IMG/VR virus record: IMGVR_UViG_3300045974_000900
Span: 1 to 35,231 of that record
Strand: one strand, 5' to 3'
DNA: 35,231 bases
Source: a virus
Shown here: piece after piece, positions 2,862 to 34,246 of the stretch
Layout of the letters: each line of letters starts with the position of its first letter
How positions within the stretch are numbered: the first letter of the stretch is position 1
Program-made: the position numbers and the translations under genes
The notes under the pieces: model-generated
Seen by the model: the letters and a program-made list of their open reading frames with translations, nothing else
Databases searched by the model: none
What the model was told of the DNA's origin: nothing

Positions 2862-3532
2862 GGTGCCTCGATTGTAAAGTGTTCAGGGGGTAAAGGGGGT
2901 GTGCCGAAGAGAATGTCCAGCCCGACCTTGGCGGCCGGTGCCTTCGTCAGAAGAAGAACACCCCACACAGTATCGGTAGGGGCAATGGGGGCAGGCAACG
3001 GCGGATCGCCAATGCCGGACTGCATGAGGGACTTGAGCTCTCCAGCCACCGTGCTGCACTCCCCGGTCATGTACCACGCGCCAAAGGGACCTGCGTCGAG
3101 CGCTGCCTGGAGCTGGCCCATGAGGGCGATCAAGGGGATCTTGAGCTTGAGTGAGAGCGCGATAGCAGCCTTGATGCCGCCGAGCTGGAACTGCAGCGAG
3201 GCAATCAGCGAGAGTGAGGCCGTGAGATTCGCGCTCAACGAGATGGACGGGAGCGCAAGCGCAGCCGAGAGACTGGCCTGTATCTGGTAGGCCGCTTGGA
3301 TGGCCAGCAATAGCGGAGCGCGGGGGTCGCTGATTTGCAGTGACAGGTTGAGCTGGGCCGCGAGCGCGGCTGAGTACTGTGCCTGGAGGCCCGCAAGCAG
3401 GGAGCCCAGACCGAACGCGCCGAACAGATTCGCGTCGAACTGCGCGAGCATCGGGTTGAGCAGCGGCAGCATCGCAGCCAGCCCGACGTTGATGTTCCCG
3501 AGCGTGCCGGTCTGTAGAACAGTGACGGTCAC
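2858..3532 (-). CDS. Hydrophobic Ala/Leu-rich structural-type protein (224 aa)
   Basis: A 224-residue protein dominated by Ala, Leu, Ser and Gln, with repeated amphipathic helical stretches (for example residues 30-160). It lacks a clear signal peptide, and its hydrophobic runs are broken by Gln, Ser and Asn, which fits bundled helices better than true membrane spans. The start is GTG at 3530-3532, overlapping the stop of the spike gene as GTGA. The end overlaps the next gene's ATG. The last 50 residues are Pro-rich and less helical. I do not recognise a family. Placement between the spike and the 748-residue protein suggests a baseplate or tail accessory protein, which is inference from order. 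Confidence 0.75.
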   Translation of the reverse strand: MTVTVLQTGTLGNINVGLAAMLPLLNPMLAQFDANLFGAFGLGSLLAGLQAQYSAALAAQLNLSLQISDPRAPLLLAIQAAYQIQASLSAALALPSISLSANLTASLSLIASLQFQLGGIKAAIALSLKLKIPLIALMGQLQAALDAGPFGAWYMTGECSTVAGELKSLMQSGIGDPPLPAPIAPTDTVWGVLLLTKAPAAKVGLDILFGTPPLPPEHFTIEAP

Positions 3533-4815
3533 GCGAGCACCGCCCCATTACCTGAGAGCACAATCCCGTTGGCGGGCATGGTGAGCTGCGCTACGCCGAT
3601 GAACGGCTGCCCGTTGAGCGTGCCCGAGATAGGGCAAACCGGAAGAGTGATTTGCACGATGGACCCCTGGGTCGCAACGGGGGAGTTACCCTTGCCGAGA
3701 CGCACAACCCCGCCCTTGATGTGGGTGTAGTTCCCGCCGTCCATGTCGATGCCCTGCGCCGCCTTCAGATTGATGAGGCCCTCGCGGGATTCGATATCGA
3801 TGTCCTCCTTGGCGCGCAAGTAGAAGCGCTTCTTGAACGACATGAGCCCGGCTGCTTCACTCCGGAGGAAGTAGCCACCTTGGCGATCGAAGAAGTGGCG
3901 GAAGGTGACCAGGTTCTTGGTGTCGGTACTTGCCGCGTCCCCGCTTGCCCCGTCGAAGCCATTGGGTGCGACTACCACCTCGTGCACGATGTACCCCTCG
4001 TTCGCATCAGTGCCGATGCCGAGCTGATTGAGGAGGGAGTCCTCGCCTGCATCTCCTACTGGCTCGCGGATGGGCAAGTGCACCTTGCCTGTGGTGACGC
4101 GGATGTCCGCGAACTTGTCGTTGGCGAAGATGCGGAACACCTGCATGTGCTCCGTCGGACTCTCCGTAGGATCAGGTCCTTCTTGGATGCCCCAGCGTAT
4201 CGTACCGCCCATCGAGTGGTGCGTGTACTGCTCTGAGACATCCATGAGATGATTGATGAGCGGGATGTACATCCGCTGACAGAGCGGGCCCGTGCCGATT
4301 TGCAGTACGCCGCCTCGGTGGAGGATGACGTAGTTGCCATCCCGCCCCGTCCATAGCTGGTCTCCTGGTTTGGGCACCGGGCGTCCTCCCGCAAAGCTCG
4401 CGTCTCGGGAGTTCGACGTGGGGGTGGACCTACCTCGAGTACCATCAGGCGCGTCTGCATCTGCGGTGTCGATGTTCTCCATCGGCATCACGAAGCTCAG
4501 TACGAACGGCGGGCTGCTATCGCTGGGCAGGCACACCATGCAGTTCGCGCCCACCTCCGGCATGGCGTGGAAGCCTTCGCCTTGAGAGAAGTGGGAGTAG
4601 GGGGAGCCGACCTGGATGTCGGGCAGGCGGATGCGATCGTACTTCGCGTAGAAGTCGATGGTCCAGTTGCGTGGATTGACCCCCACAACCGTGCCTTGGA
4701 AGATACGCGCGGGGATGTGCCCGGCCTGTTGTGTGAAGCCGCCACGGAACCTCGTGTTGTCGAAGAGGTTGAGGTTCTGCAGCGTCTGCGGACGTAGGTC
4801 TCGAGGCTGGGTCAT
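3529..4815 (-). CDS. Putative baseplate/tail spike protein with OB-fold domain (gp5/VgrG-like)
   Basis: A 428-residue protein. Residues about 33-115 look like the OB-fold domain of gp5/VgrG/gpV spike proteins: ARIFQGTVVGVNPRNWTID, then a beta-rich stretch with PYSHFSQGEG and a V-G-A-N-C-M-V segment ending in a SFVMP strand. The middle (about 150-330) is mixed. Residues about 325-378 show short alternating strands typical of spike beta-helix or beta-prism repeats (YLRAKEDIDIESREGLINLK, then a G-I-D-M-D-G-G turn and HIKGGVVRLG). Such proteins sit at the tip of the tail and pierce the cell envelope. No lysozyme domain is visible. The gene starts with an ATG that overlaps the RNA polymerase stop (TGATG). 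The assignment rests on fold-like patterns rather than on a catalytic motif. Confidence 0.6.
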   Translation of the reverse strand: MTQPRDLRPQTLQNLNLFDNTRFRGGFTQQAGHIPARIFQGTVVGVNPRNWTIDFYAKYDRIRLPDIQVGSPYSHFSQGEGFHAMPEVGANCMVCLPSDSSPPFVLSFVMPMENIDTADADAPDGTRGRSTPTSNSRDASFAGGRPVPKPGDQLWTGRDGNYVILHRGGVLQIGTGPLCQRMYIPLINHLMDVSEQYTHHSMGGTIRWGIQEGPDPTESPTEHMQVFRIFANDKFADIRVTTGKVHLPIREPVGDAGEDSLLNQLGIGTDANEGYIVHEVVVAPNGFDGASGDAASTDTKNLVTFRHFFDRQGGYFLRSEAAGLMSFKKRFYLRAKEDIDIESREGLINLKAAQGIDMDGGNYTHIKGGVVRLGKGNSPVATQGSIVQITLPVCPISGTLNGQPFIGVAQLTMPANGIVLSGNGAVLA

Positions 4816-7800
4816 CAGTGCAGATGTCCTGGCACATTCTTGAGGTGCGAGAAGGACGGATTGAGGGAGTCCTTGCTCGTGCGCCCGAACTCTGCGCCGT
4901 AGGCAAGACCGGCCAGTGGGTTCACGCCGTGGATGTCGGAGCTGGCTCGAGTCGCTGCAGCATCAGCGAGTGTGGCGCGCAGGTGCTTGTGCTGGAGCTT
5001 CGCCATCCAGTCGTCGTGCATGATGAGCGGGAGCTCGGCGACGCCCTTCAGGACGGGGGAGTGATCGATGGGCTTCTGCCCCTTGGCAACGAGCTCGCGG
5101 TTGACCGCATCGAGCTGGGTGGTGGGGTGGAACTCCCCGCGCAGATAGGTGGGGTGCCCGCCCGAGTCTTGGACCTTCGAGACGCCGCCCATGGCCCGCA
5201 CAAGCAGCTCGATGTGTCGGCGGTCCACGCCTTCGCTCTTGTAGATATCGTGCATCTCGCGAACGAGCTCGTTCTGCACCGTGGCCATGGAGCCTGTTGC
5301 CTTGTACAAGTCGTGCGGGTTGAGGACGGTACGACCTGGGTCAGACAAGAACTGGCCGGGCTTCACAACGGTGCCGACAGTAGGCGGTGCCCACGCGGAG
5401 TTAGTCTCTCCCGGAAGATGCGTGGCGAGAGAGTTACCGGCTGAGTCTCGGCCGACGTGGTGCACTTTGCCCGCGATGATGACCTTGGTACCGGTGGCAT
5501 CGTTGGTGACCTTCTCAATGGCGCCGCCGTGCATGGCGAGTGTCGCAGAGTTCTTGATGGTCTGCGGGAGCTGGGTGAGCTGCTGGAAGCGAACGAAAGC
5601 GTTGGTTGCTTTGCTCGAGCCTGTTGCGCTTCCTCCAGTATGGAACTCCTTGAGCGTGAGCTGGACAGCGCGTTCACCGATGGATTGCGACGCTTGAATA
5701 CCAACGTTGGCGCCCATCTGTACAAGCCCGCCGGCCTGTAGGCCCATGCACTTCTGGCATACGCCCTTGTCGTGCGAGCATTTCAACGGTGACCGCACAA
5801 TGAGCTGAGCGTCCTTGTCTGCTGCGCGAATCTTCCCGACCACCTCGGGGGTGAGAACGGTGCCGGCGGCGAACTGCATGGAACCCGCCGAGAATGGCTT
5901 GGCCAGGTGCCGGTCGTGTACAGCGCTGTCGCTTGCCGACATCGTAATGCCTGCGTGCGTACCGCAGTCGTGTGCAGTCACAACCTGATTCATGGTTGTA
6001 TTGACCAGCAGCTTGCTGAGGTAACCAGGCTCTTGTACCTCCTGCACCTTCATGACCGCGCCTCGCCGCGCGCCGTGCATGCCGGTCCAGTACGAGCCGA
6101 GGTCGAGACCCTCTGAGTAGGACTTGGTGATAGGACTCGGGATGGTCTCGTTCTTCGAGTTCTTCATCAGCATGGGGGCCAGTACAATCTGCTGGTACTG
6201 CGCGCGCCCCGGCTTGATGCCTGCCATGTTGAGCTGCATCAAGTGGTTCGGGTCCTTGCTGGCCTTCGCGGTGTGCATCTTGTACATCTCGTCATCCGCC
6301 TTGGCGTAGATGGCGATAGCGCGGCGGTCCTTCTCGCCTTGCGTCAGGCCCGGCAGGAGATGAATGGCATCCACTTCCTTCTTGGCCTGCGCGAGGATGG
6401 GGTCGCGCGTTGCGTGGTCCACCTCGAGATCTGCCAGCGTCAGCGTGTGCGCGGGCAGATGGAACTTCATGATGGGGCCCGCCCCAGCAGCCTTGAGCGG
6501 GGAGGTGATGGGGGCTTCGATATAACCAGTGGACGCGCCCGAGCCGAGGTCTTTGAGGCGGTTGGCGTATGCGCCGAAGAGCTCTGGGTGCTTCTTGCCA
6601 ATGTCGCTGAGGAGGGCTTCTGTTCCCTTCTTATCCAGGCGCGACTCGAGGTTGTGCATCATCTTGTCCTGCATCGAGTCGGGGACGCCGGTTGCAAGCA
6701 GGATACGGCCGGGTGTGGTGTCTTTGCCGCCGAGGCTCACCACATCGTTGTGCTTGATCTTCCCGTCCTGGAATGCTGCGAGGATGTCGGCTGGGTGCGC
6801 GTACTTGTGGTCGGTCTTCTTGCCCACGTCCGACAGCTTGTACATACCCATCGCGTATTCGAGCGTGGGCGTGTACGCGAGCTTGCCTGTAGCCTTCGCG
6901 AACAGGTTCTTGGAGGGCACCATCTTGTGTGCCTCATCGACTGCTTCTTTGCTGAGGGGCACGTAGATGGACGCGGTGTCCCAGACTACCGCGCCATCGG
7001 CCGTGCAGAACGTCCAAGCTTCCGGCACGGTCAAGTCGTACATGGTCTTTACCTCTCCGGACACAGAGGCTTCGGTAACCAAGTCCCACCCGACATTCGG
7101 GTTAGAGACGACATTCAGCCAGCGCTGCAGGTACGCACTAACGTCCGCCTTCTCAAGTAGGGTAAGCAGTGGTGTAAGAGAGGTGCGAGTGAATGTGTCG
7201 GTCTTACGGCTCTGCAATACCACGTAGCTGGCACGCGCCGCATCGAGGTGGTGATTGTCTATCCGCCTGCGCTTCCCTGCGCCTAGCGTGAGCAGCACGG
7301 CCACCAGCTCTTGCTTGGCGCGCGGCGGCAGCGGCACGATATCGGCGCGACCAAACTCGATCTTACCTTGTCCGCGAAGCCGCTCAAGATTCTTGGCCTT
7401 GCCTTCGTGGCAAAGTTCCATCCAGACGGCATCTTGAATGCTACGCGCTGAGAAAGACAGGGAGAAGACTGGCTTATCCCGCCTGGTGTACACAGTGCGC
7501 GTACTAACGATGCCCAGAGACAGCGCTAGCAGCTGCATCCCATCAGCTAGCGGCGCGCTGACCGTGGTGAAGGAGCATTGGAACTGCGGCTTATTCTTCG
7601 CGGCAGCCTTTACCCAGTTCACGGTGCCGTCGGTGTCGATCAGTCCGCAAAACAGTCCGCGACGAAACGCATCTGGGTAGCACAGAAAGTGCGGAGGGAG
7701 GTGCTTGTTGTGCGCGCCCGTACCCATCATTCCTTCCAGCCACAACCCCAAGGAAGTAACGGAAGCATTGACGCGGCCAGACTGTGCAGCGTGCCCTTCG

Positions 7801-10800
7801 AAAACATGCTCCTCCAGCATGTGCGAGACCGGATTGGCCCCCGGCGCCAGGCGCTTGATCTCATCCAACCAGAAAGCGGCAACCTCCTCACCGCCTTTGC
7901 CAAAGGCTAGATTGACGGTGCGCGCCTGTGCGGTGGACTCCTCCTTGTGCCGTGTGTTTTTGTTGTAGGTCTTCGTGACCCATCCATCCCCCGTACTGGC
8001 ACCTACAAACCAACCCGTGCTGAAGTCGAGAGTTACTGGGTCCTGCATTGCCAGGGCGTGTGCATTGGCGGGGACCACGCCGGGTACCTGTGTGTAGACC
8101 GCGTCGTCCGTAAGCCCGCGCAGGGTAGGCAAGCAGAGCCCTTGGGCGTCCGCCGGCCTCCTCTTCACCACCTCGAGCGTGTCGGGGTCGAGGAGAGCAA
8201 GACTGTGGTCCTCGGAGCAATGAAGCTCTCGCCCGCGCTCTGTGCGTACAACCCATTCTTCGCACGCCGGGTGCACGGAGTAGCGCGTCACGGGCATCAT
8301 CTGCACGCGTCCTTGATGGAAGGCAGGTACGTAGGTGCCCGACGGGACGGAGTACTCGGTTGCCCCGCCTGGGAGCAGCACCGCCGTCTCGTTCAACCGA
8401 GGGAAGTCCTCAAGATTCAGCACATGAATGGCGGCGACGTTTCCGGTGTGGGGCAAGGTGAATCCTCCGCCCTCCACGATAGCGCCGCCTGCCGTCTCTG
8501 CAAGTACGAGGACTTCACCTAGAATAGAGTCGCCATCGAAGTCGGCGTTGAAGCCGCCGCACACCATGGGGTGCATTTCGATGGCTTTGCTGGAGGCAAT
8601 GCGAGGGTGGAAGCCTTGGACCGAGTACGCATGGAGTGCGGGGTCGCGCTTCATCAGCACGGGGCGCTCTGCCATGACCTTCTCGAGGGCGATGTTGATG
8701 GACTTGTCCGTGTTCTTCGCGAGCATCGTCTGCGCCGCGAGAGAGGTGGGAGCCGCACCCATCTCCGTCAGCTTCTTCACGAGGAAGGGCTCGAAGAGCT
8801 TCTTGGCGTACTCCCTTGGCAGTCCGACCTCATCGAGGCCGAGGTGCGGGCCGGGGATGATAACGGACCGCATAGAGAGGTCCTGCCGGGGCGCCATCAG
8901 AGTGCCCTGGTAAAATCCGCTCTTGGGCTGACCGCCGGAGATCTGGTGGAGGAGGCCCTTGAGTTTCTGGTCCTTGTAGGGGACGCCGACACCGATGATG
9001 GCGGCGATGGACTCGTGGTACGCCTGGCGGTGAGCCGCTTTGCGTTCCTCGGTCCAGTTCGCCTGGAGCGTCTTGTCTTGCAGCGTGGCGTTGGTCTGCC
9101 CGAGCTGATTGTACAGCCCGTTGATGTCGGCGAACTTCACGTCGCCGCTCGGGAGCGCGGAGACTGGGCGCATCACCGGGGGGATGACGGGGAGGTGGTG
9201 AAGGATGTACGCGTCGCTCGGGGACATCTTCAGCTCCGACAAGGCAGCCAGGTACTTCACCTTCTTGAGCTGCTTGTCGACGTCCTTGGGCTTGGCACTG
9301 TCGAGCGCCTTGCGCGCCTTCGGTAGCTCCTTGCTCACGTCAACCTTGTCGAGCAGTGCCTGGATTGCCGCGCCGCTGGTGAGGCCCACGTTCGGGGGAA
9401 CGAGCGTACCTCCGGGCCCGACGCCCTTACGGCCGTACAGAACGTCCTCGTACTCCTTGCCCGAGAGGCCGGTGAGCGCGCGGATGGGTGCGAGGAAGAG
9501 CGGGTTCGGCGTCGGCTCTGCGAGCTTGATGTGCGACCAGAGCGTTCCACCGTGGCCGCCTGTGAGCTTCTCATCGAAGAGTCCGCCCGGCTTCGGCTTG
9601 AGTTCGTCCGTGCCCTTGACGCTCTTGCCGTACACCATCTCGGCGGGCTTCGAGATCTCCCGCCCGTTCGAGAGCGCAAGTATCTGCTTGTCGGTCAGTG
9701 GCGACGTGATGATTTCGTGGCCCTTCTTCTCCACGTTGATGCCCGCCCCCTTGAGCATGCCCACGAACTTCTCGTAGGCGAACGTCGGCTTCGGGTTCGG
9801 GATAGGAGTGCCCTGCTGGATTGCCGTCCAGGTAGCGCGGTGGCTCGAGGGGTCGTTGTGCTTCCACCGCTTGGCGGGGTCCGTCTGTGGATCTTCGCCT
9901 TCCGCCTTCAACGTCATGATTTCACGGAGGTTCGCACTCGCCCCATGCGCGAGCAGCGCGTACGTGCCGAGCGCGCCCATCGACTGGCCGCCCGAGTGAC
10001 TGCCTGACGTGGGTTGCAGGTTGATGTCGTAGCTCTCGCCGCCGACCTCGCCCGGCAGCGTCATGCCTGAGCGCGCACTCTCCTTCTTGTCGATCTGATG
10101 CACCAGCTTGAACATGTGCTGCTCGCCCGTGAGGATGTGCCCGAGCGAATGCCCACTGTGCGGATCGAACACTTCCTCGGTATCCGACAAGCCGTGCGCC
10201 TTGAGCTCGCCCTGCAGCTTCTTCAGGTTGTCGACACCCGGCGTGAAGTTCTCGACGATGTACGGCTTGCCCGTCTTACGGGCGACCTTCGATGCTGCGA
10301 CTTCGTACATCTGCGAGAGGTTGATGCGGCCACCGACGCCGGTGTAGTTCAGCATCACCTGCAGCGGCTTGCCGCTCTTGTCCTTCGGCATCTCGTGGTC
10401 GGGAAGGATGGCCGCCACAACACCCTTGTTGGCGTTGCGCGAGGACATCTTGTCCCCGACCTTCATCTCCTCCTGCGTCTTGACGTGGACCTGGATGCCG
10501 TCCGCAGTGTGGTGCACCGCCGTGACAGTACCTTCGAAGCCGCTGTCCCAACGCAACGAGCTGTCGGTGTGCGTGCCCACCTTGCTCTTCTGGAACGCGC
10601 CCAACCCAACACGGTCCTTGAGCTCGAACGGCTTCATCGCTGCGATGAGCGGGTCGCCTGCGCGTACCTTCTGCCCCACGCGCACCACGCCCTTGTCGTC
10701 GAGCTTGCCGAGCTGCTCCTGCGTGTACGTCAGAGGCAGGTGCACCTGGAAGCGCTTCTTGTCGAGCACGTGCGTGTCCTGCAGCTGCAGGGCGGGCTTC

Positions 10801-13800
10801 GACATGTGCTCGCTGGTCAGCTTCTCCGCAGCGCTCTTGCTGATGACGATGCCGTCCTCGTAGTTGATGCCCTTCCAGGACATGTACCCGACCCGCAGAT
10901 TCGTCCCCAGCGCGAGCTGCCCATTCTTCGAGTAGTTCGTGTCGGCAATCACCTGCCGCTCACGGACTGTATCACCCACCTTCACCAGCGGGGACGAAGT
11001 CAACGAGCTCTTCGCGTCGTTGAGCGGGAAGTTGTTGTAGAGCTGGACCTCGTGCTTCTTGCCTGCCGCATCTTGGATGTGGATGCCGTCCGCCTTGACG
11101 GCGATCACCTTGCCCGCAACGGGCGCTTGGTGCGCGGCATACTCACCCATCACGTGCTCGAACGTATTGAGCCCCGCCCTATCGATGCCCGTACCGGACT
11201 GCACGAGGGGGGCCTCGCGGTCGCGCAGTGAGATGGCCTGCTCGATGTGTCGAGTCGCCATACCAATACGGCCAGCTGACGTGCTGTTCATGAACGGCAC
11301 AAGGTTCGAGGTCAGGTTGAACAGCTGGCTCGGGTGATAGAACGTGTGCGTCGCCTCATGCACGGGAATCTCCCGCACCTGATTACCCTCGGTCGCCGCC
11401 TTGATGACCTTGCCTCGGGCTACGGGCTTGCCGTTCTTCCAATCGAACTGGTCGGAGAACGCGACGTTCGCTTGATTGACCTGCAGCGGGCTGAGCAGCT
11501 CGCTCTTGCCCGTCTTCAGATTGTAGAGCTCGACCTTCGCCTCGTGCCCAACCTTCTTCACGCCGATGGGCAGACGCAGCGTCACACCGGTGCGTGAGTT
11601 ACCCGACCAATGCCCGACAGAGTCGCTGCGCCGGATGTACATCAGGCCGCCTGGTACCTCGGCGCAGTAGACCATGCCCGCATACTGCTCGATGGAGTAC
11701 GCACGCTTCGCCTGCGGGCGCTGCACGTGACGTTCGGGGCGAAGGTACTGCCGCACCTCATAAACGTCGTGGTACCGCTCCTCGCGCGGGTCTTCATATG
11801 AGCGTACACGCGCAGCAAAGCCCAACGAAATCATCAGACGCTCAACGCCCAGGGCTAGCGCACGACTCGTCGTGGTGTAGGTCCCGCTCGCCCACTCCTT
11901 GCCGCTCGCACGTCGCTGCCCTTGGCGCCCATCACCGCGCATCAAGGCGTCGAGAAGCGCAGTGCGTGCCGCAATCGACCAAGTGAATGCCTCCTCGGGG
12001 ATGTACTTCTCGTAACTCAAGCCGAACTGCGCGAAGTAGAACGCCAACTGCTTCGTTGATAGCGTGTAGATGTTCCGGTTGTTTTCCCGCTGCGTGACAC
12101 TCCAGGTGAACGGCAATCGGTTGAGTAGTGCTTCAATGCGCGCGCACTCGTTGGGGCCCGGTAGGTCGCTCTGGCAGATGTGCACCTTGTAGTCGCTGGT
12201 CTCTGTATCCAGCCGTACGTGCCCCTCGGATAGTACCCAACCCACCAGCGCGGCCCAATCCACAAGGTCAACCTCGCGTACGTTTTTGCTCGAGTTGTTG
12301 CCCGCTACGTATGGCAGCTCGTACATCGTTTGCTCGTCGCCGCGCAGGGCGCCATGCCCCACCTGAAACACCCGGGGCTTGCCGTGCATCTCATCGGCGC
12401 GCGCGAATCGGTACTGAAGGCCGTCATCTACAGGGCGCGCCCAGATGCGGTGATTGGGTGTGACGAAGTAGTCGATGGGCTTGTTGGCTCGGATACCGTC
12501 GGTGCGCAGCCGGTGCATGGAGCCGGTGTACGGCGCCACAACCAGAGCAAGGGGGCGGTGAAACTCCATGTGCCCATCAACGAGGCAAGCCAGCTCCGTC
12601 TCTCGTGTGACTTGCGGCCAAGGCAGCCACCCGCCGGAGGTGAACACCTCGGTGAGTGAGTCGTGACAGCCTTCCGGCGTATTGATGGGATCGAGGAAAC
12701 CGATGTGGGAGTCATCGATCATCTTGGCGTCTTGCGTGATGCTGCGGTCCGATTGAATACCGCCTGCACCCATGATGGTCGTCTGCTGCGCAGAGGACAC
12801 CATTTCCACCGGGTTGATCTGACTCGCCACACGAGCGCACGAGTTCTTCAGGAACGCCTGTGACAGCGGTGTGGAGAACATGTCCGGCTTGAGGACTTCG
12901 CGGAAGTCCTTGGCCGTATTGATGTTGCGCATCGCCTTCTGCTTGATGGTCTTCGAGGCGCCCGCAATCTTGTCGTAGGCGAAGTCGCCCACCGAGCGCA
13001 GGTCCTTGAAGAGCAGGGAGTCGCGGTCGTCTTCGGGATGCCCGGCCTGCACCTTCAGCAACTTCTGCGTCGCCAGGTGGAGCACCTCCCCGTCGACATG
13101 TTCGAACGACTTGCCCAGCGTGAGCTTCGTTGAATCGGGGCGCAGCTTCGAGTCCTCGAAGACCTTCCGTACGTGCGCCTCCATCTCCTCCTGGGAGCCC
13201 GCGTCCTTGAAGGAGGTGAGCTTGTGGAGGCGAGCAACGGTACCGGCAGCTCCATGCGCCGCCTTGTTCGCCTCGAGAACTTCCTTGCCCCACGTGCTCT
13301 CGAGCTGAGCGTCCGACACGCCCATGGTCTTCATGATTGGGTAGAGCGGGAGCTTCGACTTGCCGTACTCGAGGACGAACTTCTTGGTGTCGTCGCTGAA
13401 CGTCACGTCGAACGGCGACTTGCCCGCCACGTTGAACCGGCTCTCGAGCTCCCCGTTCTGTCGACGACGCGCGTACACACCCGGCCGTAGCTGCCACTGG
13501 TTGTCGACCTGGTACTCCTGCCCGTCGAGGATGTACGAGAACCGCTGCGTGGTCTTCGGTATCTCGGCGATCTTCATTCGACCGCTGCTGACCACCTTGC
13601 CCGTCGTGTTGTCCGTGAGCTGCACGTGCGCGTACACCGGCGCGGCCCAAGTACCCCCCTCGACCTTCGCCTTGTGCTGCGCCCGGATGTCGTTCGGATT
13701 CAATACATCCGGCACCTCAATCTTCGAGAGATGAAGTGACTGCACCTGACCCTTGATAGGGAAGTGCTCCTGCACCGCAGTCGTGACCCGCTCCTTGAAG

Positions 13801-13835
13801 TGGTCGAAACTGTCTTTCGGGTCGAGATGAGCCAT
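4815..13835 (-). CDS. rpoBC: Fused RNA polymerase beta-beta' single-chain subunit with two inteins
   Basis: DNA-directed RNA polymerase with both large subunits in one 3006-residue chain (about 2132 after splicing). The beta part (to about 1313) has the Rif region (SQINP then GAGGIQSDRS), DPINTPEG, NLVPFMN, NYEDGIVISK and VGDKMSSRNANKGVV. The beta' part has ISKPAEMVYG and GGLFDEKLTGG, the RSVIIPGP lid region, the catalytic NADFDGD (Asp1765, 1767, 1769), a trigger-loop region (GMHGARRGA) and the second zinc site (Cys2624, 2686, 2693, 2696) followed by QSIGERAVQLTLKEFHTGG. The beta' N-terminal zinc ribbon is absent: KPGGLFDEKL runs almost directly into WSHIKLAEP. Inteins occupy 390-746 and 1770-2286. 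ATG at 13835 is preferred because AAGGTAGG lies five bases upstream; a GTG two codons earlier (13841) overlaps that site. The gene heads a structural operon. Confidence 0.96.
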   Translation of the reverse strand: MAHLDPKDSFDHFKERVTTAVQEHFPIKGQVQSLHLSKIEVPDVLNPNDIRAQHKAKVEGGTWAAPVYAHVQLTDNTTGKVVSSGRMKIAEIPKTTQRFSYILDGQEYQVDNQWQLRPGVYARRRQNGELESRFNVAGKSPFDVTFSDDTKKFVLEYGKSKLPLYPIMKTMGVSDAQLESTWGKEVLEANKAAHGAAGTVARLHKLTSFKDAGSQEEMEAHVRKVFEDSKLRPDSTKLTLGKSFEHVDGEVLHLATQKLLKVQAGHPEDDRDSLLFKDLRSVGDFAYDKIAGASKTIKQKAMRNINTAKDFREVLKPDMFSTPLSQAFLKNSCARVASQINPVEMVSSAQQTTIMGAGGIQSDRSITQDAKMIDDSHIGFLDPINTPEGCHDSLTEVFTSGGWLPWPQVTRETELACLVDGHMEFHRPLALVVAPYTGSMHRLRTDGIRANKPIDYFVTPNHRIWARPVDDGLQYRFARADEMHGKPRVFQVGHGALRGDEQTMYELPYVAGNNSSKNVREVDLVDWAALVGWVLSEGHVRLDTETSDYKVHICQSDLPGPNECARIEALLNRLPFTWSVTQRENNRNIYTLSTKQLAFYFAQFGLSYEKYIPEEAFTWSIAARTALLDALMRGDGRQGQRRASGKEWASGTYTTTSRALALGVERLMISLGFAARVRSYEDPREERYHDVYEVRQYLRPERHVQRPQAKRAYSIEQYAGMVYCAEVPGGLMYIRRSDSVGHWSGNSRTGVTLRLPIGVKKVGHEAKVELYNLKTGKSELLSPLQVNQANVAFSDQFDWKNGKPVARGKVIKAATEGNQVREIPVHEATHTFYHPSQLFNLTSNLVPFMNSTSAGRIGMATRHIEQAISLRDREAPLVQSGTGIDRAGLNTFEHVMGEYAAHQAPVAGKVIAVKADGIHIQDAAGKKHEVQLYNNFPLNDAKSSLTSSPLVKVGDTVRERQVIADTNYSKNGQLALGTNLRVGYMSWKGINYEDGIVISKSAAEKLTSEHMSKPALQLQDTHVLDKKRFQVHLPLTYTQEQLGKLDDKGVVRVGQKVRAGDPLIAAMKPFELKDRVGLGAFQKSKVGTHTDSSLRWDSGFEGTVTAVHHTADGIQVHVKTQEEMKVGDKMSSRNANKGVVAAILPDHEMPKDKSGKPLQVMLNYTGVGGRINLSQMYEVAASKVARKTGKPYIVENFTPGVDNLKKLQGELKAHGLSDTEEVFDPHSGHSLGHILTGEQHMFKLVHQIDKKESARSGMTLPGEVGGESYDINLQPTSGSHSGGQSMGALGTYALLAHGASANLREIMTLKAEGEDPQTDPAKRWKHNDPSSHRATWTAIQQGTPIPNPKPTFAYEKFVGMLKGAGINVEKKGHEIITSPLTDKQILALSNGREISKPAEMVYGKSVKGTDELKPKPGGLFDEKLTGGHGGTLWSHIKLAEPTPNPLFLAPIRALTGLSGKEYEDVLYGRKGVGPGGTLVPPNVGLTSGAAIQALLDKVDVSKELPKARKALDSAKPKDVDKQLKKVKYLAALSELKMSPSDAYILHHLPVIPPVMRPVSALPSGDVKFADINGLYNQLGQTNATLQDKTLQANWTEERKAAHRQAYHESIAAIIGVGVPYKDQKLKGLLHQISGGQPKSGFYQGTLMAPRQDLSMRSVIIPGPHLGLDEVGLPREYAKKLFEPFLVKKLTEMGAAPTSLAAQTMLAKNTDKSINIALEKVMAERPVLMKRDPALHAYSVQGFHPRIASSKAIEMHPMVCGGFNADFDGDSILGEVLVLAETAGGAIVEGGGFTLPHTGNVAAIHVLNLEDFPRLNETAVLLPGGATEYSVPSGTYVPAFHQGRVQMMPVTRYSVHPACEEWVVRTERGRELHCSEDHSLALLDPDTLEVVKRRPADAQGLCLPTLRGLTDDAVYTQVPGVVPANAHALAMQDPVTLDFSTGWFVGASTGDGWVTKTYNKNTRHKEESTAQARTVNLAFGKGGEEVAAFWLDEIKRLAPGANPVSHMLEEHVFEGHAAQSGRVNASVTSLGLWLEGMMGTGAHNKHLPPHFLCYPDAFRRGLFCGLIDTDGTVNWVKAAAKNKPQFQCSFTTVSAPLADGMQLLALSLGIVSTRTVYTRRDKPVFSLSFSARSIQDAVWMELCHEGKAKNLERLRGQGKIEFGRADIVPLPPRAKQELVAVLLTLGAGKRRRIDNHHLDAARASYVVLQSRKTDTFTRTSLTPLLTLLEKADVSAYLQRWLNVVSNPNVGWDLVTEASVSGEVKTMYDLTVPEAWTFCTADGAVVWDTASIYVPLSKEAVDEAHKMVPSKNLFAKATGKLAYTPTLEYAMGMYKLSDVGKKTDHKYAHPADILAAFQDGKIKHNDVVSLGGKDTTPGRILLATGVPDSMQDKMMHNLESRLDKKGTEALLSDIGKKHPELFGAYANRLKDLGSGASTGYIEAPITSPLKAAGAGPIMKFHLPAHTLTLADLEVDHATRDPILAQAKKEVDAIHLLPGLTQGEKDRRAIAIYAKADDEMYKMHTAKASKDPNHLMQLNMAGIKPGRAQYQQIVLAPMLMKNSKNETIPSPITKSYSEGLDLGSYWTGMHGARRGAVMKVQEVQEPGYLSKLLVNTTMNQVVTAHDCGTHAGITMSASDSAVHDRHLAKPFSAGSMQFAAGTVLTPEVVGKIRAADKDAQLIVRSPLKCSHDKGVCQKCMGLQAGGLVQMGANVGIQASQSIGERAVQLTLKEFHTGGSATGSSKATNAFVRFQQLTQLPQTIKNSATLAMHGGAIEKVTNDATGTKVIIAGKVHHVGRDSAGNSLATHLPGETNSAWAPPTVGTVVKPGQFLSDPGRTVLNPHDLYKATGSMATVQNELVREMHDIYKSEGVDRRHIELLVRAMGGVSKVQDSGGHPTYLRGEFHPTTQLDAVNRELVAKGQKPIDHSPVLKGVAELPLIMHDDWMAKLQHKHLRATLADAAATRASSDIHGVNPLAGLAYGAEFGRTSKDSLNPSFSHLKNVPGHLH
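6978..8528 (-). mobile_element. Intein 2 in RNA polymerase beta', directly after the catalytic NADFDGD
   Basis: A 517-residue intein, residues 1770-2286. It begins with Ser1770 (SILGEVLVLAETAGG) immediately after the last catalytic Asp. It ends VVWD, followed by the +1 Thr of TASIYVPLS. Excision joins NADFDGD to TASIYVPLS, matching the bacterial NADFDGD-QMAVHVPLS. The B block is CSEDHSLALL. LAGLIDADG-type motifs are GWFVGASTGDGWV and GLFCGLIDTDGTV. The splice chemistry residues are unusual: Ser at position 1, Trp in place of the penultimate His, Asp in place of the terminal Asn, and Trp in place of the F-block His (VPEAWTF). Unspliced enzyme should be inactive because the Mg-binding loop is split. 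Confidence 0.94.
11598..12668 (-). mobile_element. Intein 1 in RNA polymerase beta (after TPEG)
   Basis: A 357-residue intein, residues 390-746 of the precursor. Cys390 follows INTPEG and Asn746 precedes the +1 Ser of SRTGV. Removing it restores INTPEG-SRTGV, the counterpart of bacterial IETPEG-PNIGL. The B block is intact (VTPNHRIWA, Thr-x-x-His). Two LAGLIDADG-type motifs, LVGWVLSEGHV and LLDALMRGDG, indicate a homing endonuclease domain. The C-terminal end is atypical: the penultimate residue is Gly (WSGN) rather than His, and the usual F-block His in the segment after VYCAEVP is Leu. The Asn and the +1 Ser are normal. The insertion lies next to the Rif region, close to the active centre. 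Confidence 0.95.
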
Positions 13836-13840
13836 GGCCA

Positions 13841-13848
13841 CCTACCTT
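13841..13848 (-). promoter_or_regulatory. Ribosome binding site that decides the RNA polymerase start
   Basis: On the minus strand AAGGTAGG is followed by TGGCC and then ATG at 13835, a good five-base spacing. The in-frame GTG at 13841 overlaps this site and cannot be served by it, so the ATG is the likelier start. Confidence 0.6.
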
Positions 13849-15439: not shown

Positions 15440-18400
15440 CTATGTCTGTCGGCGTGGTGGCAGCTTCTCTGGCATCGGGCGCATGTCCACACCGGCTGAG
15501 GCTCCAGGAGGACCACCTGCCGCCTGTGGCTGCTGCCCTTGCGCCATCAACTGCTTCACCATGTCGGCGAGCTCGGGGCTCTGCACACGAAGGCTGGTCA
15601 GCGCGGCCTGTTGCTGGTCTGGCGGCAACGCCGAGATGCGCGCCGCTTCCGACTGCGCATAGTACTGGAGCGACGTGTTCTGCACCGCACCTGGGGGTGG
15701 AGCGCCGCCAGCCAGCAGATCGCCGCGGTTCATGTTCTGCCCCGCGCCCAGCTGGCTCTGTGCCTGCTGTGGAATACCGCTCTGGTCCGCTTGCACAGTC
15801 TCCCCGCCGGGCCCCTTCACCTGGAGCTCGGGCGGGAGTTCTTGTGGCGCCTGCTCGTCCGCACCAGGCGCACTGCCCACGCCGCCCTGCTCCATACCGC
15901 CCGGCTCTCCGGGGGCCGGGGGCGCTTGCTGCGCCTGAGCCATGGCCTGCTGCGCCTTGGCTTGCTGCTTCATCTGCAGGAGCTGCATCTCTCCCTGCAG
16001 CATAGCTTGGCCCATCTGCGACTTGCGGGTGGCCTCGAGTGCCTTGGCTGACTCGCCGTCGATGAGCTCGAGCTCGTCGTCGAGGCTGAAGTCGCTGTCG
16101 CCCGCGAGCGTCGTCTTCGAGATGATGTTCGCCTGCTGCAGCTGGAAGTTGAACGCCTTGCGCTGCAGGTCGTCCACCATCTTGAAGGGGCGGAACCGGA
16201 CATTGACTTCCGGCCAAGACATGAACGCCGCGATGTCCCGCACAACCTTTCGCAGCAGGCTGCGCTGCCCCTGGATGTAACCGAGGAACGCGTTCTCCAC
16301 CATGCGCATCGAGACCTGCGTCCCGGACCACTGCGCACCACCGAAGATGAACTCCTTGGGGACACCAAGCCCGTTGATGATGACCTCCATCAACGACTGC
16401 ATCTCTCCTGTGAGAAGAAGTGCTTTGCCGTCGCCACCGATGGTTTGGTTGCCAATCGGCAGCGGTACGATGGGGATGTAGTTCGGGTCCCGGCGCCACT
16501 GGGCAATCTCACCCGCAACCGCGTCTCGCCAATCTATCAACGACGTACTTACGTAAGGGTCTGAGCTCCCTGAGCCTGCCTGCGGGTACAGTATACGCAG
16601 CGGGACGATGGATTCTAGTAGGATCGAGTTGTGGGTAGCCATCCCCGGTAGGCAGAAGGTGTGCTCCTCCTCTACTTCAAAGCTAATGACTTCTTCGCAC
16701 GGCACCTCTTCGATTGAGTTGATGCGCGCGGCGAAGTAGTCACCGAGGAAGAAGCCGCTCTTGCCGCTCTCGATAGGCGCAGAATCTTCCCCCGCCATCA
16801 GCGCGACGAGCCGGCGGGCAGATGCGGTCTTCAGCGTTAGATGGAACGTAGGGCGCCCCGCCTCGAGATGTGTCTGTCGCCCGTTCTTATCGGTGATGGT
16901 GGCGGCGTAGCTCTCGCGCTCCGACACCGTCGCGATGCAGCGTAGGCTGAGGAGTAGCTGATACAACTGGTAGACCAGCCCGCCGTTCGCGCAGCACACT
17001 GCAACAGTTTTACCGTCCTTTGCCGTGTAGCCGTCCGCCTCGAGGTATCCGCGAAGGAAGGCCAAGACGATGGCGTCCGGTGCCTCCATGATTTCCTTGG
17101 GCACGCGCTTGGTCTTGGCGTGCCCGGAAATCCATGTATGCATGAGGCCGGAGAAGAGGGTCTCGCTGGCAGTCAGCCCCCAGCCGCGGGAGTTCGGAGA
17201 CGGGTGCCGCGTACACACGCACCCAAACACGCGCTCAATCGCCTGCTCTAGTTCAACGCCGTCGTCATCCGGCCCCATGGAGAACTCTACGCGGCCCTTG
17301 CCGATACTACCGTCGCCCAAGTACCAGCCGGCGATATACGCAAGGTCCTCGTCTAGCTCTAGCACGCGCTCAATGCGCTTGTGCACACGCCCTTGTCGAA
17401 GCGCGCGCTTCGCGGCCCGCCCCGCGTTGTCGTGCGCAACGTGTGCCCCAGCCTCTAGCTGCTCGAACGCCTGTGCGGTCGCAAGACTGGTACCGCTGTA
17501 CACGAACTTGTCCGTCACGGCGAAGTCCGTGATGTGCGCGCCGAGATCTACGCTCGTGCATTCGCGTACACGCGTTGTAGGGTACCCCACGTATTGCCCA
17601 ACCTCGAGCTCATCGGCATCGACGAACTTGAACTCGTACAGGCTTGGGTTACGCAGCACCACACTCGAGCGGCGGTGCTCCTTGGTGTCGATGCGCCGGC
17701 TTACATCGTTACGACGAAGCACGTACATCGGGTGGTTATTAGACACCACACTCGGCAGCTGACGAAGACCGCTCACCGAAATCTTCAGCGCGTGATCCCC
17801 GCGCTCCGGCACCATCGGACGCACTTGCTTGGCGGTAATGTGGCGCATCACCCCCGTGTGACTACGCACCAGGTCCCCGGCCTCGAGGTCGGCCGCGCGG
17901 CGAAGGCCAAGGGGCGTCTCGAGTAGCGTCTCTGGGGCGACGCACTCCTGCGCCTTCTTCATCACCTGCAGGTAGAACGCGTCCTTCAGAACGCACATCA
18001 TCGGCGGGATGCCCCAGCCGCGGTCCTGGTTGGCAAGCGTTGGTCGACGAAGGTGGTGCAGTCGGTCGTTGTTCAGAATGACGGACTTCTGCTCACGCAG
18101 CGCCTGAACGAAGATCTTCGGGATTGAATCTACAATCTCCTTGCGCCCCATCGTGATGTCGCTTCGAAGGGTCGCGGGCATGTTGTAGAAGTACAGCTCT
18201 TCGCCCGTCAGCGGGTTGTAGCTGATGTTCACATCTTCCACATTCCAGCGGAGCAGCCGAATCGCACTCGCATTGCGCGGGTAGATGTCGCTCACCGCAG
18301 CATCGCCCGTGTGCCCACACTTCGGGCAGCTCAACCGGTAGTTCAAGCTGGTGAACGTCCAGTGCTGCCGGATGTTGCGCGCTTGCTCCTCCCAGTTGCA

Positions 18401-18817
18401 CGCCTGGCACTTCAGGAACTTGACGAGCGGGTAGCTCAACGTGGTGAGGCTATTGCCGTAGACGTGGTAGTCGAGCCCCGACTCGATCTGGAACGCGCGG
18501 TACCTCAGCGTCTCCTGAAGCAGCTCGGTCCAGCGGTCCTTCACCGCCTTGTCGGGATGGTCGACGCTGATGTCGGTGACCGGATACTCCGACATCTTGA
18601 ACGCCACCGCGTTCATGAGCGGGTTCGTCAAGAAGTAGTAGCGGCACCACCGGAACAGAGCGGTGAAGGTCGCGGGGAAGTAAGTGTGCGCGACGTCGAA
18701 GAACGGAGAGGGGTACGACATCCCCTGCATCATTCCGCCCTGGATGCGACCGCGGTTCATCCCCGCGCGCATACTGTTGGGCCCGACAGGCCCGCCACCA
18801 AAACCTACGTTGCTCAC
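15440..18817 (-). CDS. Portal protein precursor with intein
   Basis: Portal vertex protein, the ring through which DNA is packaged and ejected. The precursor is 1125 residues, about 686 after intein removal. The start is GTG at 18817: AGGTGG lies just upstream and the codon overlaps the previous stop (GTGA). The frame is open about 160 codons further upstream, but that Arg/Ser-rich translation lies inside the 391-residue gene and is a shadow. Portal-like features are WCRYYFLTNPLMNAVAFKMS near the N-terminus, LDYHVYGNSLTT, then SILLESIVPLRILYPQAGSG and the MVENAFLGYIQGQ helix. A zinc-ribbon-like insert has Cys137, 140, 164 and 167. The C-terminal 200 residues are Gln/Ala/Pro-rich. The intein occupies residues 292-730. 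Confidence 0.88.
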   Translation of the reverse strand: MSNVGFGGGPVGPNSMRAGMNRGRIQGGMMQGMSYPSPFFDVAHTYFPATFTALFRWCRYYFLTNPLMNAVAFKMSEYPVTDISVDHPDKAVKDRWTELLQETLRYRAFQIESGLDYHVYGNSLTTLSYPLVKFLKCQACNWEEQARNIRQHWTFTSLNYRLSCPKCGHTGDAAVSDIYPRNASAIRLLRWNVEDVNISYNPLTGEELYFYNMPATLRSDITMGRKEIVDSIPKIFVQALREQKSVILNNDRLHHLRRPTLANQDRGWGIPPMMCVLKDAFYLQVMKKAQECVAPETLLETPLGLRRAADLEAGDLVRSHTGVMRHITAKQVRPMVPERGDHALKISVSGLRQLPSVVSNNHPMYVLRRNDVSRRIDTKEHRRSSVVLRNPSLYEFKFVDADELEVGQYVGYPTTRVRECTSVDLGAHITDFAVTDKFVYSGTSLATAQAFEQLEAGAHVAHDNAGRAAKRALRQGRVHKRIERVLELDEDLAYIAGWYLGDGSIGKGRVEFSMGPDDDGVELEQAIERVFGCVCTRHPSPNSRGWGLTASETLFSGLMHTWISGHAKTKRVPKEIMEAPDAIVLAFLRGYLEADGYTAKDGKTVAVCCANGGLVYQLYQLLLSLRCIATVSERESYAATITDKNGRQTHLEAGRPTFHLTLKTASARRLVALMAGEDSAPIESGKSGFFLGDYFAARINSIEEVPCEEVISFEVEEEHTFCLPGMATHNSILLESIVPLRILYPQAGSGSSDPYVSTSLIDWRDAVAGEIAQWRRDPNYIPIVPLPIGNQTIGGDGKALLLTGEMQSLMEVIINGLGVPKEFIFGGAQWSGTQVSMRMVENAFLGYIQGQRSLLRKVVRDIAAFMSWPEVNVRFRPFKMVDDLQRKAFNFQLQQANIISKTTLAGDSDFSLDDELELIDGESAKALEATRKSQMGQAMLQGEMQLLQMKQQAKAQQAMAQAQQAPPAPGEPGGMEQGGVGSAPGADEQAPQELPPELQVKGPGGETVQADQSGIPQQAQSQLGAGQNMNRGDLLAGGAPPPGAVQNTSLQYYAQSEAARISALPPDQQQAALTSLRVQSPELADMVKQLMAQGQQPQAAGGPPGASAGVDMRPMPEKLPPRRQT
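16628..17944 (-). mobile_element. Intein in the portal protein
   Basis: A 439-residue intein, portal residues 292-730. It starts at Cys292 (CVAPETLLETPLG) after KKAQE and ends MATHN before the +1 Ser of SILLES. Excision joins VMKKAQE to SILLESIVPLRILYPQ. Splice residues are standard: Cys1, block B SNNH, F-block EEEHTF with His, penultimate His, terminal Asn and +1 Ser. Two LAGLIDADG-type motifs, YIAGWYLGDGSIG and FLRGYLEADGYT, mark a homing endonuclease domain. Unlike the two RNA polymerase inteins, it has no missing key residue that I can see. Confidence 0.94.
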
Positions 18818-19989
18818 TGGCCACCTGCGTAAGTCGGAGGAGCTACATTCGCGTACTGCGGGAGTTGCTGCTGGGGCGGCGGTGCTACCTGCGCGCCTCG
18901 TAGCTTGTTGACGCCCTGCATGCCGAGGTCGACTGCCTTGCCCGCCATGCGCCCGCCTGCCGCGAGGGTATGGCCGAGCGCCATCTGCCCGACGAAAGGA
19001 ACGCTGCTGCCGAGCACGCCGCCGAGAACGTTGCCACCTGCTCGACCGAGGCGCTCGGCGCGGCTCATATTCGCATCTGGGTGGCCCTCGGGAAGCTCCT
19101 CGTTGCGGAGCGCGGACACACCTTCCATGCCGCCCATTGCAAGACCCGAAGCAACGCCGACACGCCCGAGTACACCCGGGGAACCGTGCCACGTTTCCCC
19201 GATGCCCTTCTGAAGCGTGTCGATGGGTCGCGTTGCCAGCCCCTTGAGGTAGCCGGGCACACTTGTAAGGCCCGCCTTGTCTGCTTCCATAGACGCGTTC
19301 GCCCACCGCTTCATGTGCTCAAGATGCTTGGCCGCGTCCGCCTTCTGAATGATACTGAGTGCTTCGTCGGGCGTGCCTTGTCCCACCAAGCGACGAGCAG
19401 TCTCGCCCCAGCCCATCTCGATGTGGCCTGCGTTAGCCCTGGCGAGAGAGGCCTTCGCAGCGCGGTGCGCGCCGATGGCGTCGGCGGCACCGCCCCCAAT
19501 AGCTCGTACGGCGCTCACACCGCTCTTACCGGCCACCTCAGGCGCAGCCCCCGTAAGGCCGTGAATCTGACGCTGCCCGAAGTGGGTGAGCGTGTCGAAG
19601 GCTTTCGGGACGGCAGCTGAGACACCGGGGGCGAGATGCCCTACGGCCGTGCCTGCCGCGAGACCGCCGACTGTGCCGACGGCCATACCCTTGGCAGCTC
19701 CAAAGGCACCAGCCCCCAGCGCTTGTCGCGCCGCGTCCGTCTCCGAGGCTCCTTGGTTGCGTGCGTCTTGGTACGCCTGATGGCCCTTGTAGAGGCCACC
19801 AACAGCGCCACCTGCTAGAGCACCGCCGGACATACCGAACCCCGCGGCACGCGAGCCCAGGGCCTTGCCAAGCGCAGCGGTACCTCCGGTGATGCCCTGC
19901 CGAATCTCTTGAAGTGAAACAGCGCGCTTCTCGAGCTCGTCGACGAAGCCCGCAAGGTGCGCGTACGTGAGGGGAGCGTAATCCAGCAT
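18814..19989 (-). CDS. Gly/Ala-rich virion-type protein (391 aa)
   Basis: A 391-residue protein with several long Gly/Ala stretches that form glycine-zipper-like hydrophobic segments, for example around residues 50-68 (GFGMSGGALAGGAVGGLYKG) and 94-116. Such segments can insert in membranes, as in some phage ejection or internal virion proteins, but no family is recognised. The N-terminus contains FVDELEKRAVSL, and the C-terminus is Pro/Gln-rich. It precedes the portal gene, with which it overlaps by four bases (GTGA). Possible roles are an internal head protein, an ejection protein or a portal-associated factor. All of these are inferred from composition and position. Confidence 0.7.
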   Translation of the reverse strand: MLDYAPLTYAHLAGFVDELEKRAVSLQEIRQGITGGTAALGKALGSRAAGFGMSGGALAGGAVGGLYKGHQAYQDARNQGASETDAARQALGAGAFGAAKGMAVGTVGGLAAGTAVGHLAPGVSAAVPKAFDTLTHFGQRQIHGLTGAAPEVAGKSGVSAVRAIGGGAADAIGAHRAAKASLARANAGHIEMGWGETARRLVGQGTPDEALSIIQKADAAKHLEHMKRWANASMEADKAGLTSVPGYLKGLATRPIDTLQKGIGETWHGSPGVLGRVGVASGLAMGGMEGVSALRNEELPEGHPDANMSRAERLGRAGGNVLGGVLGSSVPFVGQMALGHTLAAGGRMAGKAVDLGMQGVNKLRGAQVAPPPQQQLPQYANVAPPTYAGGQ

Positions 19990-27555: not shown

Positions 27556-27563
27556 CGTTCTGT

Positions 27564-27570
27564 GGAGGAG
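27564..27570 (+). promoter_or_regulatory. Ribosome binding site deciding the DnaB start
   Basis: GGAGGAG is followed by AGC and TTG at 27574. The in-frame GTG at 27562 would lie within or before this site and directly after the terminator T-run, without a site of its own. TTG 27574 is therefore the likelier start, although the spacing is short. Confidence 0.5.
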
Positions 27571-27573
27571 AGC

Positions 27574-34008: not shown

Positions 34009-34246
34009 TGACCAAGTGTTTAGGCCGAACAGAAACCCACTCAAAACGGTGAACCCTAAAGGCACGACGCCCAAGGCAATACCGTGCTGCGCTCTCATGC
34101 GTAGTGTATCGACTCGAGGAGCTGTCTCCTCCCAACGAGAGGCCCAAGCGGAGGCTAGTCATGTCCATGCTCTCGTTGACACGGTGGGCGTACGTCGATG
34201 CGTACGAAGGTATAGTCAGTGCCCGCTGAAAGGCGGGAAGCACACG
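34009..34246 (+). ncRNA. Group I self-splicing intron (group IA-like, no ORF) in the polymerase gene
   Basis: A 238-nt intron. P1: exon GTTCGGT (34002-34008) pairs with GCCGAAC (34024-34030), with the U-G pair at the splice site. P10: exon 2 TTGAAC (34247-34252) pairs with GTTTAG (34018-34023). P3: CCCACT (34036-34041) with GGTGGG (34183-34188). P4: ACGGT (34046-34050) with ACCGT (34081-34085). P6: 34087-34092 with 34099-34104. P7: GACT (34111-34114) with AGTC (34214-34217). P7.1: GAGGAG/CTCCTC. P7.2: CAACGAGAG/CTCTCGTTG. P8: CGTACG (34189-34194) with CGTACG (34201-34206). P9: 34219-34226 with 34233-34243. The last base is G. P7.1/P7.2 and the td-like core AAACGGTGAACC with CAATACCGTGCT point to subgroup IA. 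Confidence 0.93.

Follow-up and report, generated by a model that had tools for sequence, protein, structure and literature searches.

A fused beta-beta' RNA polymerase gene carrying two inteins in a phage lineage with a co-occurring sigma-70-family gene

Results and discussion

A single open frame for beta and beta'

The DNA analysed here (the window) is a complete IMG/VR record of 35,231 bases and is part of a larger virus genome. Its minus strand carries a fused beta-beta' RNA polymerase (RNAP) gene at 4815..13841, a single open frame of 3,008 codons, which is identified by its Pfam domains and by the same open reading frame (ORF) in relatives, and which ends with a stop codon at 4817..4815. 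Taken mechanically, the frame starts at GTG 13841, but the ATG at 13835, with a purine-rich stretch just before it, is the likelier start; the latter equals the gene end given in an earlier, sequence-only reading of this DNA. Rpb2 domain 6 (E = 1.2e-51), Rpb1 domain 5 (3.8e-25), Rpb1 domain 2 (1.7e-21) and Rpb2 domain 3 (1.4e-5) score above their Pfam cut-offs in this frame, with Rpb1 domain 1 (5e-5) under its own, and the beta domains come first along the frame, with the beta' domains after them.

The beta N-part (12669..13841, minus strand; residues 1-391, with INTPEG as its last letters) aligns at 61% with residues 2-396 of an intein-free relative, L004. After a first insert, residues 749-1771 (8529..11597, minus strand) comprise the beta C-part, the junction and the beta' N-part up to NADFDGD, and align without interruption with L004 386-1409, at 56%. 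The beta/beta' junction is short (about residues 1380-1400; window 9704-9642, minus strand); in residue numbers counted from GTG 13841, NLREIMTLKAEG is at 1304 and ISKPAEMVYG at 1396. The catalytic NADFDGD (8529..8549, minus strand; residues 1765-1771) is followed by a second insert, after which the beta' C-part (4818..6977, minus strand; residues 2289-3008), with the trigger loop, the second Zn site and the C-terminal region, aligns at 50% with L004 1407-2141. The open frame and the Pfam order bear out the sequence-only reading, which had the landmarks of beta and beta' in order in one frame with no stop between them: neither a stop nor a frameshift separates the halves, which lie in the same frame here and in relatives. 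With both inserts removed, the chain from the ATG has 3,006 - 874 = 2,132 residues, in agreement with the near-complete fused chain of about 2132 residues that had been proposed.

Directly downstream, a coupled gene of 428 aa (3529..4815, minus strand) begins with the final base of the RNAP stop codon; its product is baseplate/spike-like, according to weak Pfam matches, and 113 loci have a homologue on the downstream side of RNAP, in many cases at a distance of 4 bases. A portal protein gene with an intein-like insert (15440..19306, minus strand) lies upstream of RNAP in the window, and a portal homologue does so in 101 loci.

Catalytic motifs and fold

A profile search of the PDB returned 205 distinct chains at E ≤ 1e-3. 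The best 60 are all large subunits of bacterial-type or plastid RNAPs, and the best E-values among these 60 are 1.5e-92 for beta and from 1.8e-75 for beta'. For the motif comparison, the window was aligned with 11 fused relatives, Salmonella phage Arash, Vibrio phage D69 and three bacteria. The catalytic GDK...NKG lysines of beta and ADxDGD are common to every row; A-D-x-D-G-D is invariant in 13 aligned rows, and A-D-F-D-G-D across 28 intein-free relatives. NADFDGD is the Mg-binding triad of beta' (residue roles as in E. coli). The trigger-loop and FHTGG stretches are found in the window and in nearly all fused rows; Arash and D69 have altered versions of them. Every phage row (14/14) lacks the first zinc finger of beta'. 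The window itself reads GDKMSSRNANKG in the beta motif (within residues 749-1771), as against GDKx.GR[HY]GNKG in bacteria and almost every other row; the window-specific RNANKG, against the usual RHGNKG, lies beside a catalytic lysine.

The fused middle of L004 (residues 480-1620) was modelled by AlphaFold with a pLDDT of 84.6 and a pTM of 0.72. VIA-align matched the beta part of the L004 model to bacterial-type beta with Z of about 30-37 and an rmsd of about 3, over some 310-500 aligned residues that all fall within model residues up to about 590; these structural matches concern the beta part, and the beta' part was compared by sequence alone. Among viral models, Foldseek placed two unnamed proteins at the top, followed by giant-virus RNAPs. 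The window gene thus combines homology to beta and beta', the catalytic ADxDGD and the beta lysines, the features by which we recognise a two-barrel RNAP, and it is classed as such an enzyme, with predicted RNA synthesis.

Two inteins in conserved motifs

Intein 1 (357 aa; 11598..12668, minus strand; residues 392-748) lies in beta after INTPEG, begins with C and ends SGN|S. Intein 2 (517 aa; 6978..8528, minus strand; residues 1772-2288) follows directly after NADFDGD within beta' and runs from S1 to VVWD|T, ending in Asp with no penultimate His; it carries two LAGLIDADG motifs (Pfam LAGLIDADG_3, E = 7.8e-13). Both inserts have an N-terminal nucleophile, splicing blocks, a C-terminal Asn or Asp followed by S, T or C, and a conserved extein site, and both match the intein parts of NCBIfam models for intein-containing proteins. 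Intein 1 resembles inserts of mycobacteriophage DNA methylase genes, and phmmer of the intein sequences against the PDB gave no match at 0.01. The flanks of both sites are contiguous in the intein-free L004, and an empty site is also present in L037. By their anatomy these two in-frame inserts are taken as inteins that are predicted to splice, which upholds the earlier proposal that they have to be spliced out.

Allelic inteins of intein 2 were found in relatives, among which inserts occupy at least five sites, each in a conserved motif: NTPE(G), VGDKM, one some ten residues further, NADFDGD and LTMKAFH. L002 and L037, whose exteins are 97.5% and 96.4% identical, differ by a 509-aa NADFDGD intein, which, to judge from these sequences, was gained or lost recently. 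Intein 2 sits right behind the Mg-binding NADFDGD of beta', whereas the inteins covered in the available text of Goodwin 2006 (PMC1635734), from RNAPs of eukaryotes and eukaryotic viruses, are in second-largest subunits, where they occupy the most conserved sites, facing the active site, and their removal precedes function. No paper on an intein at NADFDGD was found in the open-licence literature.

Some relatives depart from the usual anatomy at this site. L021, L138, L152 and L153 read ADFDGN|C...VWD|T, and ordinary splice points would turn the third catalytic Asp into Asn, while a shift of both splice points by one residue would give DGD back. The NADFDGD-site inteins of L062, L182 and L022 start with Ala or Gln in place of the usual N-terminal nucleophile, and those of L062 and L182 also lack the block B His; these inteins possibly use class 2 or 3 mechanisms.

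The fusion is the norm in its lineage

Scanning viral contigs yielded 64 loci, and in 56 of them RNAP is a single ORF no shorter than 1,900 codons. Among the remaining eight, six are truncated at the border of the stretch; L044 is truncated as well and has a stop in beta besides. In L063 (9863-29664) many large inserts break RNAP up into at least three long ORFs. A wider profile scan found at least 528 relatives in at least 598 stretches, the best 80 of which were kept and gave 76 new loci; 67 of these 76 are fused and the other nine run off the end of the stretch. The two sets of loci have contigs in common, and de-duplication left 78 distinct full-length chains with no insert, all of them fused and from many metagenomes, together with 16 distinct chains with inserts, four of which are near-copies.

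The nearest isolates are Salmonella phage Arash (OQ632216) and Vibrio phages D69, D181 and D148. In Arash and D69, beta is joined to the N-half of beta' as in the window lineage, but in Arash and D69/D181/D148 the C-half of beta' is a separate gene (606/609 aa), unlike the single chain of the window. D181 also has a homing-endonuclease gene within beta, which is split into two ORFs (L106). Arash and the window lineage are distant kin, at about 34-38% in the shared region. Our comparison shows Gp206 of Arash to be beta plus the N-half of beta'; it is labelled simply beta in the available text of the Arash paper (PMC10585845). An Arash-like profile scan gave 30 loci; in 23 of them beta and the N-half of beta' are joined, and in 18 the C-half of beta' is a separate ORF; L318 and L319 have everything in one ORF, L314 is fully separated, and the remainder are partial. 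The constant element is thus the beta-beta' junction; farther downstream, past the catalytic motif, beta' can be split again. The sequence-only reading had called the fusion unusual, but in its own lineage fusion is the norm, and the contrast with split enzymes is softened by members that are re-split inside beta'.

The kinship of the window with Arash goes beyond the polymerase, as the portal genes indicate. By hhalign, the portal family of the window pairs with gp204, the Arash portal (E = 7e-64), and in Arash this homologous portal adjoins RNAP, so that the portal-RNAP order is common to both.

Relation to cellular polymerases

A tree was built from 56 rows and 685 columns under LG+C20+F+G4, with phage and bacterial rows and no archaea or eukaryotes; the bacterial row L206 (partial beta) was dropped and L290 left out. 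It separates 27 fused phage rows, Arash and D69 from 27 bacterial rows with 100/100 support and a long branch. L291 is sister to the window, and by path length L010, L005 and L004 are the nearest rows. The fused state requires two changes on the best tree and one change in 56% of the bootstrap trees; the fusion may be ancestral and have been split later in Arash-like phages, or the order may have been the opposite. A profile scan of bacterial-genome contigs yielded at least 593 relatives; the best 80 of these, titled as bacterial genomes, show at most 40% identity in the best segment.

The rpoBC fusion of Helicobacter had been named as a cellular parallel. It is likewise one frame (in H. anseris, beta and beta' share a 2,901-codon frame), but it is cellular and both of its halves are bacterial. 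In the tree it nests in Campylobacterota, among the bacteria and 100/100 away from the phages, so the Helicobacter fusion arose independently; the parallel holds as an analogy and fails as kinship, and the tree rules out a Helicobacter-like transfer.

Comparison with known phage polymerases

The mReC group of metagenomic tailed phages (Weinheimer and Aylward 2020) is reported to have a beta/beta' clade outside the cellular enzymes and an NADxDGD motif (PMC7481178). The window lineage shares with it readable beta and beta', NADxDGD and an RNAP near hallmark genes (PMC7481178), and its RNAP clade too stands apart from cellular enzymes (29 phage against 27 bacterial rows, 100/100, in a tree of phages and bacteria, with no archaea or eukaryotes). 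The available mReC text speaks of beta and beta' subunits, names fusion for crAssphage only, and mentions neither inteins nor sigma (PMC7481178). It also reports the major capsid protein PF07068 in the eight mReC contigs with a detected capsid protein (PMC7481178). This family was found in 0/20 and 0/29 of our relatives (0/49) and in neither Arash nor D69, with T4 as control at 1.6e-122, which rules out mReC membership by capsid family, though the contig sets may overlap. Terminase PF03237 was over its cut-off in T4, Arash and 1/20 relatives, and weak in ten more relatives and D69.

RNAPs of the phiKZ/AR9 type are two-barrel enzymes with no alpha or omega, one set of which is packaged in the virion (PMC7598289, PMC13282480). 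As far as the available text of these reviews goes, they consist of four or more polypeptides and have no sigma-70 homologue, whereas the window lineage has one chain, with a sigma-70 gene in most large relatives; these two features rule out phiKZ-type membership, and no such RNAPs are among the listed matches of the PDB-profile and isolate sequence searches. Reviews describe RNAP-encoding jumbo phages in general as lacking sigma homologues and as having beta and beta' divided among at least four chains, in the text available (PMC7598289, PMC7824862, PMC13282480). The crAss-like gp66, P23-45 gp64/gp96 and YonO-type enzymes have both barrels in one chain, and some are packaged or tail-fused (PMC10770324). 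They are strongly reduced and divergent, whereas the window enzyme is a nearly full-length bacterial-type beta plus beta'; its Pfam RpoB/RpoC domains above cut-off rule out membership of this reduced type. The open-licence literature yielded no report of a fused full-length beta-beta' phage RNAP, nor of inteins in such RNAPs. By their sequences, the contigs form a large, little-known phage group with a near-complete, bacterial-style, one-chain RNAP. The finding is not ordinary, yet a phage-encoded two-barrel RNAP is a known kind of enzyme.

A candidate sigma partner

Profile searches agree with the sequence-only reading, which saw no gene for alpha, omega or sigma on the 35-kb fragment. In 22 genomes, alpha and omega each gave 0/22 matches over cut-off, with positive controls in 13 of 14 and 14 of 14, respectively. 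For sigma, weak and strong PF04542 matches in 10/20 large relatives led to a family of about 255 aa. Its profile, A1, matched 24/46 records, 23/25 of those above 118 kb and 1/21 of the smaller ones; six of the 24 had built the profile, leaving 17/19 large records when these are set aside, and several records are near-copies. A1 had no match on the window, which is a fragment. The enlarged profile, A3, matched 25/29 further virus records, two of the 25 having gone into the profile, as well as Arash and D69, and gave no match in T4 or in two further added records. G003 (170,766 b), G009 (133,510 b), G056, G059, G064 and G080 had no sigma match with these profiles. In the reverse direction, sigma picked out 18 contigs, and 15 of these carry an RNAP of the window's type as well, the three misses being 65-111-kb pieces. 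The sigma gene is not next to the RNAP gene in the relatives' genomes.

Sigma regions 2-4 can be recognised in this family by profile. Six of these proteins match SigBFG (NCBIfam) at E = 1e-5 to 1e-10, all under the curated cut-offs. In the PDB profile search the best match is SigA (5.9e-16), and the top Foldseek matches are mostly sigma factors. The structural model has a pTM of only 0.44 and low global TM-scores to sigma chains, 0.2-0.35, as would be expected if the placement of the domains is unsure. On this profile evidence the protein is assigned to the sigma-70 family as a divergent member, with predicted binding to core and promoter. Searching 50,697 phage records with the sigma of L070 gave its four best E-values in Arash, D69, D181 and D148, which also hold the nearest RNAPs among isolates, and hhalign of A3 against Arash Gp10 gave E = 4e-28 over 204 columns, by which Gp10 is assigned as the orthologue of the relatives' divergent sigma. 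The sequence-only reading had left open how the polymerase finds promoters. The window indeed has no sigma, but the co-occurring sigma-70-family protein of its relatives is a strong candidate and likely answers promoter recognition by the fused RNAP; the window's own phage would also have this gene. A second, more canonical sigma-70 (PF04542 over cut-off) occurs in 5/20 relatives (G006, G009, G011, G013 and G014), and Arash has a second annotated sigma, the RpoS-like gp196.

RNAP proteins and the sigma orthologue have been detected in particles of Arash, the distant relative. Gp206 tops the published particle proteome, above the major capsid protein, with 3,516 spectra (128 unique peptides); Gp216, the second RNAP protein, has 1,210 spectra and 40 peptides, and Gp10 has 467 and 24 (PMC10585845). 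The particle table lists 116 proteins, and gp196 is missing from it (PMC10585845).

A possible mode of action and its alternatives

In the mechanism that we propose, one chain would provide the full two-barrel core, beta plus beta', and formation of the active site would have to wait until the two inteins have excised themselves. The alpha dimer has an assembly role in RNAP. Here the core would fold and work with neither alpha nor omega, the covalent beta-beta' link standing in for that role, and the phage-encoded divergent sigma-70-family protein would bind the core and direct it to phage promoters. Core and sigma would ride in the virion, be injected and transcribe early genes upon entry. 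A virion-carried, sigma-dependent single-chain RNAP is the best reading of the data, and we consider it probable. A fuller version is put forward only tentatively, as something that may well prove too strong: a self-contained virion holoenzyme of a one-chain core and its own sigma, which would transcribe early genes with no need of host polymerase, in which fusion would replace alpha-driven assembly, and in which the inteins in the triad would act as a toll gate that keeps the polymerase off until spliced, possibly in response to conditions. That splicing is regulated is speculation.

It is possible, if unlikely, that the window enzyme is instead a late, non-virion polymerase, made after infection and not packaged. 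The particle detection comes from the distant Arash only, and its authors allow that carry-over of cell-abundant proteins may explain detection in virions (PMC10585845); the place of RNAP within a run of structural genes could merely reflect late expression. Packaging is favoured by the fused RNAP polypeptide being the most-detected protein of Arash particles, above the major capsid protein, and by RNAP lying between the portal and the coupled structural-type gene in most relatives.

We likewise think it rather improbable that the fused RNAP is active with promoter choice that is intrinsic or due to an unrelated factor, while the sigma-like protein steers the host polymerase. The phiKZ/AR9 non-virion RNAP and the crAss-like RNAP are precedents for such promoter choice; in the available review text, phiKZ-type phages have no sigma homologues and use gp68/gp226, and sigma-bearing jumbo phages usually lack an RNAP and use the host core (PMC7598289, PMC13282480). 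The second, more canonical sigma of some relatives (PF04542, 5/20) fits the same scheme. Against it, the divergent sigma tracks RNAP in both directions and is absent from T4, its four best phage E-values are exactly those of Arash, D69, D181 and D148, and in the published proteome it is Gp10, and not the RpoS-like gp196, that is found with RNAP in Arash virions.

That the gene is decaying, rendered non-functional by inteins in its active site, seems very unlikely. RNANKG in place of RHGNKG beside a catalytic lysine, the terminal Asp of intein 2 and the DGN before the same intein site in some relatives might be read as signs of decay, but the frame is open over 9 kb, both lysines and the whole of NADFDGD are kept, and the intein anatomy is intact. 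Moreover, splicing by the usual path is described for inteins that end in Asp (PMC4031507), and the exteins of L002 and L037, 96-97.5% identical in spite of differing by an intein, argue that carriage is recent and tolerated. As for an assembly or frame artefact, which the window, as a single metagenomic record, might invite, the same fusion in 56/64 and 67/76 loci and in 78 distinct intein-free chains, far beyond chance, excludes it.

If the virion-carried, sigma-dependent reading is true, a phage enzyme has been recruited together with bacterial initiation logic, in very few chains. The lineage runs opposite to the splitting seen in jumbo phages, having beta and beta' welded and a sigma-70-family gene besides, and it would be a natural experiment on the roles of alpha and omega. 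What this analysis adds of importance is the sigma partner, which accompanies RNAP in Arash particles; since most larger genomes encode this sigma, the virus may carry a complete transcription apparatus of its own. Arash grows on a laboratory Salmonella strain and its virion proteome is public, which opens the claim to direct testing. A second tractable question is posed by the inteins at the Mg-binding triad.

Other inserts in the window

Further intein-like inserts are present in the portal gene (15440-19306, minus strand) and in a DnaB-like helicase gene (27562-30204, plus strand). A 238-base insert (34009-34246, plus strand) breaks DNA polymerase A in motif B, KTIGFG|LNYGM. Its flanks rejoin in frame; it begins after T, ends in G and has AAGGTATAGTC at 34207, which is like the S element of group I introns. 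Rfam gave no match over the whole window or over this insert, whose fold is unremarkable (z -1.3). The 35 kb thus hold four inteins and one intron-like insert.
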